Below are positions 48,801 to 51,800 of a stretch of DNA of 64,000 nucleotides, piece after piece. The notes beneath the pieces were generated by a model that saw nothing but the letters and a program-made list of their open reading frames with translations, had not been told where the DNA came from and did no database searches. Where the stretch lies: assembly GCA_034401795.1 (NCBI GenBank), contig CM067372.1:34164351-34228350 (forward strand). The letters are read 5' to 3'. Positions within the stretch are counted from its first letter, which is position 1, and the number at the start of each line of letters is the position of its first letter. The position numbers and the translations under genes are program-made. Source of the DNA: Chaetoderma sp. LZ-2023a. Taxonomy: Eukaryota; Mollusca; Caudofoveata; Chaetodermatida; Chaetodermatidae.

Positions 48801-51800
48801 CATCTGTCACAATGATAGCGTGTCTACCCGCCACTGTTAGTTTGAATGAGAAATGCGTTTTTGTTTACCCTCACTTCTGTTATTTATTATAGGGAGACCC
48901 AATCCTGATCTGCAACGAGGGTGATACAGAGTTACTGCAGTTTGCTACAAAGATAATTGAAGTCCCATCAACTATTGATTGTCTGCAAGCCATCTTAACT
49001 ATCATTCCATTACAGCTGCTGTCCTTACATATTGCTGAACTCAGAAACTGTGATGTAAGAGGTTCCTTAAGGACTGCAGCTCTGTGAAGTTGTGCTGGAT
49101 ATTTGCTTTTATGCTTTGTCGTTTGTTTTCGTTAGTGCATTGATGCTTATTTATGCTTTGTAGATTTCTTTCTCTGGTGGATTATAGCTTTGTGGTGTTT
49201 GTTTTCTGTAGCACATTATTGCCTGTTTGTAATGTGTACTTTTCTGTGTTAGATCATTGTTTGTTTGTGAAGTTTTGCGGAGTTTATGCCAGAGTATAAC
49301 ATGTGGTTTTGTATTGTACCAAACGTCTCAAGATGCCCAGTGTAGATCCAGATTAAGCTTATGCTGGGCCCAACACTATTAGCTTTCTGGGGTGGATCTG
49401 TGAGAGGCTTTCAGATATCCTTCCGCTGAAAACTATGAAAATTACATTATGCTATTTCCTAGACAACTCATGTGCTGAATTTATTTAGATTGTTAAATTC
49501 ATATTCAAATTCAGTTTCTTAAAATTTTCAGCTGCGGGTAGCAGATCAATAAACTGTCATGTCGCTTAGTCAGTCAGTTTGTTAGTTAGTTAGTGTCTTC
49601 GAAAGCACAATGCAACACTTTTTACTGCATCAAACTCGGCCAACAACTGAGTGAGATATCTTGGATATTATTTTTGAAAATAATAACTGAATATTGACAG
49701 CTTATTCCGTGCTGTCGTTTCAAGAGATGTTTGTATACTGTAATCAAACCTGGTGTATGCACACATTGCAGGGTTAAGCTTTGTAGCGTAGCCAAAGTAG
49801 GTCACTCAATTATTAGTGTTACTATTAATTTCGCCAATTTTGTTAATTTCGAAATGAAGAATGAATTTTAAAAATGCATTAAAATGCATCAAATGAGGGG
49901 TGGAATGGGGTGTGGGGGGGGGTGAGTTGGGGGGTGGGGGTGGGTGGAAGTACGGAATTACATTCTGTGTAATGTGTTTACCTTTTTATATATACAATGT
50001 CTTATAGACCCATTCCTGTTCCTGTATTTTATACTTCATTGTTGGTGACTGCATTTCGATCATGGCTGCTATAATGCTTGCTTTTTGTTGTTTTGCACGC
50101 TTTTTTGCGCTTGCTTTTGTTCTGTTTGTTAACCCTTTAATGGTCACAATTGGTCAAGAAAATCACAATATTCGCTTCATCAATGGCTGTTTGCAGGACA
50201 AGAGAAAGCTTTTTTTTGCCACTAATGACTGGCTGGGCTACCACTTACAAGTCAGCAGTGGTAAATTGAGGAAAAAATCTCTAGGCATGCAAATAGACAT
50301 TTCTCGAGACCACTGCAGGGGCCATATTTTGCCAGCTTTCCCATCAAAGGGTTAACTGGTTCAACTTGACAAACCAAAGACCACTAATGCTTTGCAATGC
50401 ATGAGATACTCTGTTCAATATTTTGAAATTGGTTTGACTGGATGGTGTTGCTTCCCAGAGCAGCAACAGCTCTTCAGTCAAACCAATTTCAAAATATTTA
50501 TCAGCTTTCTCATATGTTTGCCGTAAGTTTGAGTTATGTCAGTGCTTTAAGAAGTCATTGTGCTTTTGCTTGCTTTGTTATTACTTGTTCTGCTTTTTGT
50601 TTTTGCTTGTTTGTGTAGGGTCGACCCATAGTTTTGTGTAATACTGGTGATAGTGAAACATTAATACAGTTTCCATATAAGTCCCTGGAAGTACCAAATA
50701 CTGTGGACTGTTTACAAGGTTTGCTGACTGTCATCCCACTTCAGCTGCTAGCATATCATATCGCTGTTCTCCGGAAGTACGATGTAAGACAAAATCCCAT
50801 TTATGTTTGAACAAAGCTCAAGCTATATGTCTAGATTGATATCTTCCTTCCTGCTATAGATAAAGCCCTGCAGAGCAGATTGAGTACATTAAGAATACAT
50901 TCAAAGACTATTTTTGCAGCAAAGAGTATTTTCCTTTTTAACTCAGAATATTAAAACTTGAAATTTCGGTGTTGCACATTCAAGACTCCTATACAGGAAA
51001 GCTGTTGCATATTTTGAAACTAATTTGACTGGAATCTATTACCAGTCAGAAACATCTCCCAGTCAAATTAGTTTTAAAATATCCAGCAGAATATTTCATA
51101 CATCATAAAGATTCTTGTCATTTCTTGTTTGTAATGATTACAGTTTTAACGCATATCATATACAGTCCTGCCTAATTACTAAATCACAGATCCTCTTGTC
51201 AAACTTAATGCCCAAATTTCGGCCATCATAACCACTTCATCAGCGCTGTATTTGTGAGATCTTAGAGGTACTGTGTGTAAAAGTATATGATAATTTGTGC
51301 GTGAAAGCAGAGCAGAGGGTATGGTGGATTGTAATGAGCGAATCTGTGTGCAGGGTTTGGTAGCTAGGTGGAACTAAACGCTTTATAATGTAATTGTATA
51401 GGCTTTATTAGTTAGTACATTGAGTTTAAGTAATAGTGAATGAAACCAGAAATATTTATTTTGGAATTAGTCAATGGTCACTCATGAATGGATTGGGGTG
51501 TAATGTGACTGAGTTGGGGGATGTAGGGATGGGGAGTGGTTGAAAAGGTAGGCTGGGATATGAGTCACTGCTTAGGTAGGGGTGGGATTTAAGGGAATCG
51601 TTAGGGCTACGGTCAGAGTTAAGGTAGGTTTTCTGGTGGTGTGAATGGATTGGGTGGGTAAGATTAAAAGGTTACGGTTGGTGAGAGTAGGTGGGTGGTA
51701 TTGAATATCTAGGGGTGAGTCGGGATTGAATGGATGGGGATGGGTGGAAGTGAATAGGTAAGGCTTTGGTTGGAGTGAATGGATAGGGTGGTGTTCTGAC

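Follow-up and report, generated by a model that had tools for sequence, protein, structure and literature searches.

A stretch of 64,000 nucleotides (hereafter the window; contig C14:34164351-34228350, + strand) in a 2.44 Gb animal assembly of 2753 contigs contains a GFAT gene whose penultimate coding exon is present in two versions, both intact and able to stand in for each other. Our analysis makes it probable that these tandemly duplicated exons, here called exon A and exon B, are used alternatively, and probably in a mutually exclusive manner, to give two GFAT isoforms that would differ only in the segment equivalent to residues 614-667 of human GFAT1. In the following we describe the gene and its exon pair, weigh other explanations of the pair, and compare it with known cases of exon exchange in metabolic enzymes.

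The GFAT gene and its two penultimate exons

The GFAT gene lies on the + strand of the window, where 17 coding exons, a count that includes both penultimate versions, were placed between 5793 and 52071 by matching splice junctions to human GFAT1. Placement did not reach the start codon or the first coding exons, the model beginning at position 78 of the human chain. Its translated product aligns with human GFAT1 (PDB 6r4e) over 605 residues with E = 8.1e-298, and apart from the exon pair the gene is a normal GFAT gene. The exons are listed below; those from 5793 to 43460 each rest on a junction match to human GFAT1.

5793-5911, + strand, first of the coding exons placed; acceptor not resolved
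6570-6628, + strand, coding exon
7851-7985, + strand, coding exon
16776-16837, + strand, coding exon
20840-20919, + strand, coding exon
32971-33076, + strand, coding exon
35096-35259, + strand, coding exon
35615-35808, + strand, coding exon
37026-37146, + strand, coding exon
37846-38003, + strand, coding exon
41868-41982, + strand, coding exon
42578-42705, + strand, coding exon
43332-43460, + strand, coding exon
46574-46612, + strand, coding exon upstream of the A/B pair, 13 residues, ending in phase 0 (junction search against human GFAT1, translation)
48893-49054, + strand, exon A, version 1 of the penultimate coding exon, 54 codons, phase 0/0 (AG acceptor, GTAAGA donor)
49055-50618, + strand, intron between exons A and B, 1564 nt
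50619-50783, + strand, exon B, version 2 of the penultimate coding exon, canonical-like, 55 codons, phase 0/0 (AG acceptor, GTAAGA donor)
52027-52071, + strand, last coding exon, the catalytic C-tail (14 residues) and stop codon (junction search, translation)

Exon A (162 nt) and exon B (165 nt) are both open, and translation shows that the frame is kept on entering either exon from 46612 and on leaving it into 52027; the junctions of B were also found by junction search. Whether the product contains A alone, B alone, A and B together or neither, the frame stays open to the normal stop codon in all four cases. The first-pass annotation had described two phase 0/0 exons with AG acceptors and identical GTAAGA donors, 1564 bp apart, a description that agrees with the coordinates and the translation. 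Its estimates of about 63% identity between the two versions, and of a second version nearer to human (about 59% against about 50%), were likewise confirmed, with 34 of 54 aligned residues identical (63%) and with 59.3% identity to human GFAT1 for B and 50.0% for A. At the DNA level A and B are 62% identical and differ at 62 nucleotides. Two letters of the start that it gave for the shared segment, GRP..IC, need a small correction: A begins GDP, and B reads LC in place of IC.

When joined with neighbouring exon pieces, A and B each match human GFAT1 in the PDB over the whole query, and these two neighbouring exons of similar length both align to the same segment, human GFAT1 614-667. Since these matches cover the whole query and each exon also finds the other in a genome-wide search, the resemblance to GFAT is not a matter of chance. 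The acceptors score 8.8 bits for A and 12.1 bits for B, compared with a median of 5.9 bits for 17 other GFAT acceptors (14 from the window gene and three from a second GFAT gene described below). No third copy of the exon was detected in the window by tblastn with A and B.

Several mobile elements and repeats were also observed in the window. Three Tc1/mariner-type transposase frames of 343-348 aa (15265-16311, - strand; 33636-34667, + strand; 59414-60445, - strand), the first two of which lie in GFAT introns, are closely similar and open and match Pfam HTH_Tnp_Tc3_2 and DDE_3; the sequences suggest that these three elements have been recently active. The stretches 913-3144 and 25700-28106, both on the - strand, hold pieces of a non-LTR retroelement (reverse transcriptase and endonuclease domains) and frames that by eye look like those of a Penelope-like element; two of these frames were run against Pfam and gave no match. 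A 32-bp unit, repeated in tandem about 49.5 times, occupies 43838-45420, in the intron before exon 46574-46612.

Genome-wide copies and a second GFAT gene

A search of the 2.44 Gb assembly with exon B returned three animal places, namely B itself, A and an exon of a second GFAT gene, together with two matches on contig C18 (5/5 candidates scored). Exon A as the query returned the same three animal places and one match on C18 (4/4 candidates scored). By comparison, the 56-residue piece that precedes the A/B pair was found at two animal places and three bacterial-type places. Among the scored candidates we thus found two animal GFAT genes and three copies of the penultimate exon. Three animal places for the exon and two for the upstream exon give no sign of a retrocopy or of an assembly duplicate, and no retrocopy of GFAT was seen among the scored genome-wide matches. 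Had a spliced retrocopy turned up, it would have revealed which of the two exons is used.

The second GFAT gene lies on the - strand at C14:34809978-34818236, about 0.6 Mb from the window, and its exon pieces correspond to those of the window gene in the part seen. It has a single version of the penultimate exon, at C14:34809978-34810139 (- strand), with the same borders and the same GTAAGA donor as A and B. A motif search did not find its last exon in 18 kb downstream. Outside the penultimate exon, over 229 residues, the two GFAT genes are 79% identical to each other and each is 81-82% identical to human.

Bacterial-type SIS proteins were also observed in long open frames on contigs C18, C19 and C2618 (611-618 aa on C18 and C19, 323 aa also on C19, and 337 aa on C2618). 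As C18 is more than 4.1 Mb long and carries such proteins, the assembly seems to include bacterial genomes, either of a symbiont or of a contaminant. The assembly gave 44 matches to the haemocyanin beta-sandwich domain (Pfam PF14830), a mark of molluscan haemocyanin, and on this basis the genome is probably that of a mollusc. Clusters of these domains score equally on C8 and C17, which may reflect either haplotypes that were left uncollapsed or a large duplication of recent date.

An artefact, in which allelic copies or an assembly error would have set two exon versions side by side, deserves almost no credence here. Duplicated stretches may occur in an assembly of 2753 contigs with equal-score haemocyanin clusters on two of them, although nothing of this kind points to the A/B place itself. 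Against an artefact stand the DNA identity of only 62% between A and B, the single occurrence of each among the matches found, and the weak similarity of the flanking introns, which at its best (after A versus before B) reaches 71% over 56 nt with E 9e-4.

Divergence of A and B under constraint

The 62 nucleotide differences between A and B fall 18/10/34 on codon positions 1/2/3 (chi-square p=0.0007). The NG86 method gives dN 0.34 and dS 2.5, and LWL85 gives dN 0.34 and dS 1.47; the maximum-likelihood dS of 23 is unusable and YN00 returned no estimate, both of which we read as saturation of synonymous sites. In a neutral simulation, 62 neutral differences were placed on either A or B as the starting sequence. 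Stop-free outcomes made up 15-16% of the total, and none of 20,000 outcomes per starting sequence was stop-free with 20 or fewer amino-acid changes. Taken with the genome-wide matches, the third-position excess and the simulation support a tandem exon duplication whose two versions have, as suggested earlier, long co-existed under constraint. These sequence comparisons support the view that the A/B pair as a whole diverged under protein-level constraint; being pairwise, they do not isolate constraint on A.

The two versions have not changed in the same manner. The second gene, human GFAT1 and a fungal GFAT chain (PDB 2poc) have 23 residues of this segment in common, of which B keeps 21 and A keeps 17. 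Where B, the second gene and human agree, A carries R615 to D, V641 to I, G646 to A, V650 to I, A657 to S, V662 to E and Y666 to C (human numbering); B has as its own changes I619 to L and I647 to L, and it is longer by one codon. With the second GFAT gene as the outgroup, A-only nucleotide changes are distributed 8/6/4 by codon position and B-only changes 6/2/11, so that positions 1-2 hold 14 of 18 private changes in A versus 8 of 19 in B (Fisher p=0.045). The exon-tree branch is 0.45 for A and 0.21 for B, while a relative rate comparison of amino-acid changes (nine in A versus four in B) is not significant (p=0.166). From these patterns B looks like the general isoform, and A would be either specialised or somewhat relaxed.

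These asymmetries could also mean that A is an ageing relic, a once-used duplicate that is losing its function and is rarely or never spliced, and we hold this to be quite unlikely. Its changes at 6 of 23 deeply conserved positions, compared with 2 of 23 in B, and its longer branch point in that direction, and the lean of its private changes to codon positions 1-2 would fit partial relaxation. However, A has no stop or frameshift and has good splice sites despite the saturation of synonymous sites, it retains most of the deeply conserved positions (17/23), and a neutral course rarely left the exon open in the simulation and never did so with so few amino-acid changes.

Age and origin of the duplication

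Because synonymous sites are saturated, a recent duplication is unlikely, and from the sequence an old exon duplication is quite possible. The first-pass annotation had argued for a duplication inside this lineage from three marks shared by A and B, CN.GD, QF and EVP. This argument fails, because the fungal chain 2poc, which we take to be Candida albicans GFA1, reads ICNEGD and LEVP, and the second gene has EVP as well. Two of the three marks are therefore most simply ancestral. Only three residues (L, F and I) are shared by A and B and private to them relative to the second gene, human GFAT1 and 2poc.

The exon tree, for which two Bacteroidales loci served as outgroups, positions A, B, the second gene and human with low support, the nodes concerned having ultrafast bootstrap values of 27 to 44. 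The gene tree took five of the six bacterial-like GFAT loci, which comprise three from viral contigs and three from Bacteroidales. All eight topologies tested pass the AU (p 0.12-0.66), KH and SH tests. Two topologies fail bp-RELL, a weaker criterion. In one of them A groups with the second gene while B groups with human, and in the other A+B is sister to the second gene; the former is also the only one to fail c-ELW. A and B are sisters in three of the tested topologies, two of which pass every test. The amino-acid difference between A and B is 37%, and that between B and the second gene is 35%.

The segment of the protein that would be exchanged

Exons A and B encode the equivalent of human GFAT1 residues 614-667, a part of the second sugar-isomerase lobe that immediately precedes the mobile C-tail. 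The catalytic residues of human GFAT1 are K558, E561, H577 and K676; further sugar or phosphate contacts are T376, S377, S421, Q422, T426 and S474, and UDP-GlcNAc is contacted by Q310, R343, G355, T447, T458, G461 and H463 (PMC7000685). None of these 17 residues, as named in the part of that source available to us, falls inside the exchanged segment after the numbering was checked. The part of the window GFAT that is common to both isoforms keeps 10/10 of the catalytic or sugar-contact residues and 5/7 of the UDP-GlcNAc contacts so named.

The two UDP-GlcNAc contacts that differ in the window GFAT are Q310, which is K (with uncertain alignment), and T458, which is A; by eye, the second gene has S at the latter position. 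Feedback sensitivity may therefore differ between the two GFAT genes.

An effect of the A/B swap on catalysis or feedback is, judged from the sequence, possible but indirect. We infer that what the swap changes is not the active site itself but packing, either under the C-tail or between subunits; in this way it would spare the catalytic residues and could tune activity or regulation, as the swaps in PKM and KHK do.

How the choice between A and B could be made

Mutually exclusive use of A and B, as inferred from the sequence, calls for a means of avoiding double inclusion and skipping, both of which would give in-frame products that the reading frame does not forbid. Recognized means of exclusion that we checked are a short intron, a mix of U2 and U12 splice sites, a frameshift leading to NMD, and RNA structure or protein regulation (PMC6071210, PMC5740500; accessible parts). 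A too-short intron is ruled out by the length of 1564 nt, and a frameshift with mRNA decay by the fact that all products are in frame. A U2/U12 mix is ruled out by inspection of the splice sites, which have ordinary GTAAGA donors and AG acceptors and which we take to be of U2 type by consensus. With these three excluded, splicing proteins or RNA structure are left. Since neither frame nor intron length can enforce exclusivity, we propose that both A and B would be spliced, B to give the general isoform and A a specialised one, and that double inclusion and skipping would be avoided through regulated splice-site choice by proteins, RNA structure or both.

A less strict arrangement, in which B would be included constitutively and A would serve as a cassette exon, added at times or used in a minor product, so that use would be alternative without being strictly exclusive, appears unlikely to us. 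It would be allowed by the in-frame A+B product and by an intron ample for A-to-B splicing, and the acceptor of B is the stronger one (12.1 vs 8.8 bits). However, the A+B protein would carry the final 54-55 residues of the isomerase lobe in duplicate, immediately ahead of the catalytic C-tail, and such a repeat inside a folded lobe would be expected to cause misfolding. In addition, the long conservation of both exons as homologues of one segment fits replacement better than addition. Replacement of one version by the other remains our preferred reading of the pair.

Three palindromic, MITE-like hairpin repeats, members of a dispersed family, alternate with the two exons:

47856-47975, hairpin repeat upstream of exon A
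50396-50519, hairpin repeat between exons A and B
50986-51103, hairpin repeat downstream of exon B

These repeats could in principle enforce exclusivity, with pairing of the first and middle copies looping out A, pairing of the middle and last copies looping out B, and the middle copy able to do only one of these at a time. This would be a rival proposal on the mechanism rather than on the finding, and we judge it very unlikely. Apart from the alternation with the exons, cofolding speaks for it, as the first pair reaches -105.9 kcal/mol versus -100.4 kcal/mol for the separate repeats and the second pair -92.0 versus -85.4. On the other hand, purely intermolecular duplexes (-81.3 and -77.0) do not reach the stability of the separate hairpins, and every one of the repeats forms a strong fold by itself (-37 to -52 kcal/mol). 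Local hairpins form first during transcription. The family also occurs at 15 places in the window, and the three copies in these introns compare with 1.3 expected (P=0.14). The idea that the repeats are duplicated docking sites is likewise retained only as a weak rival, as each of the three copies has better matches elsewhere in the dispersed family than in the other two.

Besides the repeat arms, exact complementary runs of at least 12 nt are a C/G-rich run of 15 nt and a run of 12 nt between the upstream and middle introns, and a run of 12 nt between the middle and downstream introns, as counted with no shuffle control. The 250 nt after exon A hold four acceptor-like decoys compared with an average of 0.96, and several other intron places have four to six. 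The motif TGTTTG occurs nine times in the middle intron versus 2.7 expected, a number reached in 0/300 shuffles; the test covered four motifs in four stretches, chosen after seven patterns had been viewed. This enrichment may serve as a lead towards a protein regulator, and as a lead only.

Comparison with known systems

GFAT, the enzyme with which amino-sugar production begins, governs how much UDP-GlcNAc is available for glycoproteins, chitin and mucus. The controls of GFAT described in the accessible parts of the literature searched are feedback inhibition, phosphorylation, paralogues and the vertebrate muscle exon, and an exchangeable exon next to the C-tail would provide another means of adjusting the enzyme. 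The pair would also serve as a natural experiment on the role of this segment, with both versions kept next to each other and the catalytic residues unchanged.

The A/B exon pair is not described in the accessible text of the papers searched on GFAT, GFPT1 or hexosamine together with mutually exclusive exons or alternative splicing, namely PMC8834284, PMC11988029, PMC12794171, PMC13296549, PMC7564762, PMC5475432 and PMC8307304. In the text available from the study of the two Drosophila GFAT genes, the words mutually exclusive appear once, for the tissue expression of the two human genes (PMC8834284). A cadmium study of the oyster Crassostrea angulata, likewise a mollusc, lists gfpt1 as one of 13 genes obtained by an alternative-splicing analysis and an expression cut-off (PMC11988029). 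The type of splicing event is not given in the part of that paper available, and as a related case the oyster gene is suggestive only.

We offer a tentative and, as a whole, doubtful speculation in which the gatekeeper of the hexosamine pathway would have, in this exon pair, an old splice switch of molluscan or still greater age. Exon A would replace the base under the C-tail with one whose charge is altered at positions conserved elsewhere (R615 to D, V662 to E) and so change coupling or UDP-GlcNAc feedback. Splicing would then take the place of a second gene or of phosphorylation in setting the amino-sugar supply in tissues such as shell-, mucus- or chitin-making epithelia, and the oyster gfpt1 event (PMC11988029) would be the same switch.

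Alternative splicing of GFAT itself is known from vertebrates, and the first-pass annotation had rightly mentioned a GFPT1 insertion exon located elsewhere in the protein. The resulting form, GFAT1-L, has an 18-residue insert after residue 228. It arises from exon 9 of GFPT1 and is restricted to striated muscle (PMC7948480, PMC7564762; parts available). This exon is of another kind from A and B, being included or skipped at a different site of the protein rather than duplicated in the second isomerase lobe.

Closer parallels are found in other metabolic enzymes with mutually exclusive exons, such as PKM and KHK (PMC13296549, as far as accessible). Exons 9 and 10 of PKM, which yield PKM1 and PKM2, resemble the GFAT pair in that one of two exons is used in a central metabolic enzyme, and the PKM isoforms differ in activity and regulation (PMC13296549). 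PKM differs, however, in enzyme and fold, and it has RNA and protein evidence and known regulators, whereas the GFAT pair is known from sequence alone. Exons 3A and 3C of KHK are likewise two alternative exons of the catalytic domain in a sugar-phosphate enzyme (PMC13296549). The swapped region of KHK holds a catalytic arginine that is kept in both versions (PMC9741552, accessible part), in contrast to the GFAT exon with 0/17 named residues. Exons 6a and 6e of coq-2, found in helminths, annelids and molluscs, are also exclusive exons of a metabolic enzyme in which one version is nearer to the common form and the other is specialised; one of these exons is tied to rhodoquinone synthesis (PMC7434440, part available). 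In clusters of the Dscam type, tandem exon duplication is linked with competing docking and selector RNA structures (PMC6071210, part available), and the repeats in the GFAT introns similarly alternate with the exons. Unlike those structures, the GFAT repeats belong to a dispersed family. The GFAT pair brings a new case, from a rate-limiting enzyme, of an exon arrangement whose kind is already known, and it would extend the list of metabolic enzymes that are switched through exon exchange.
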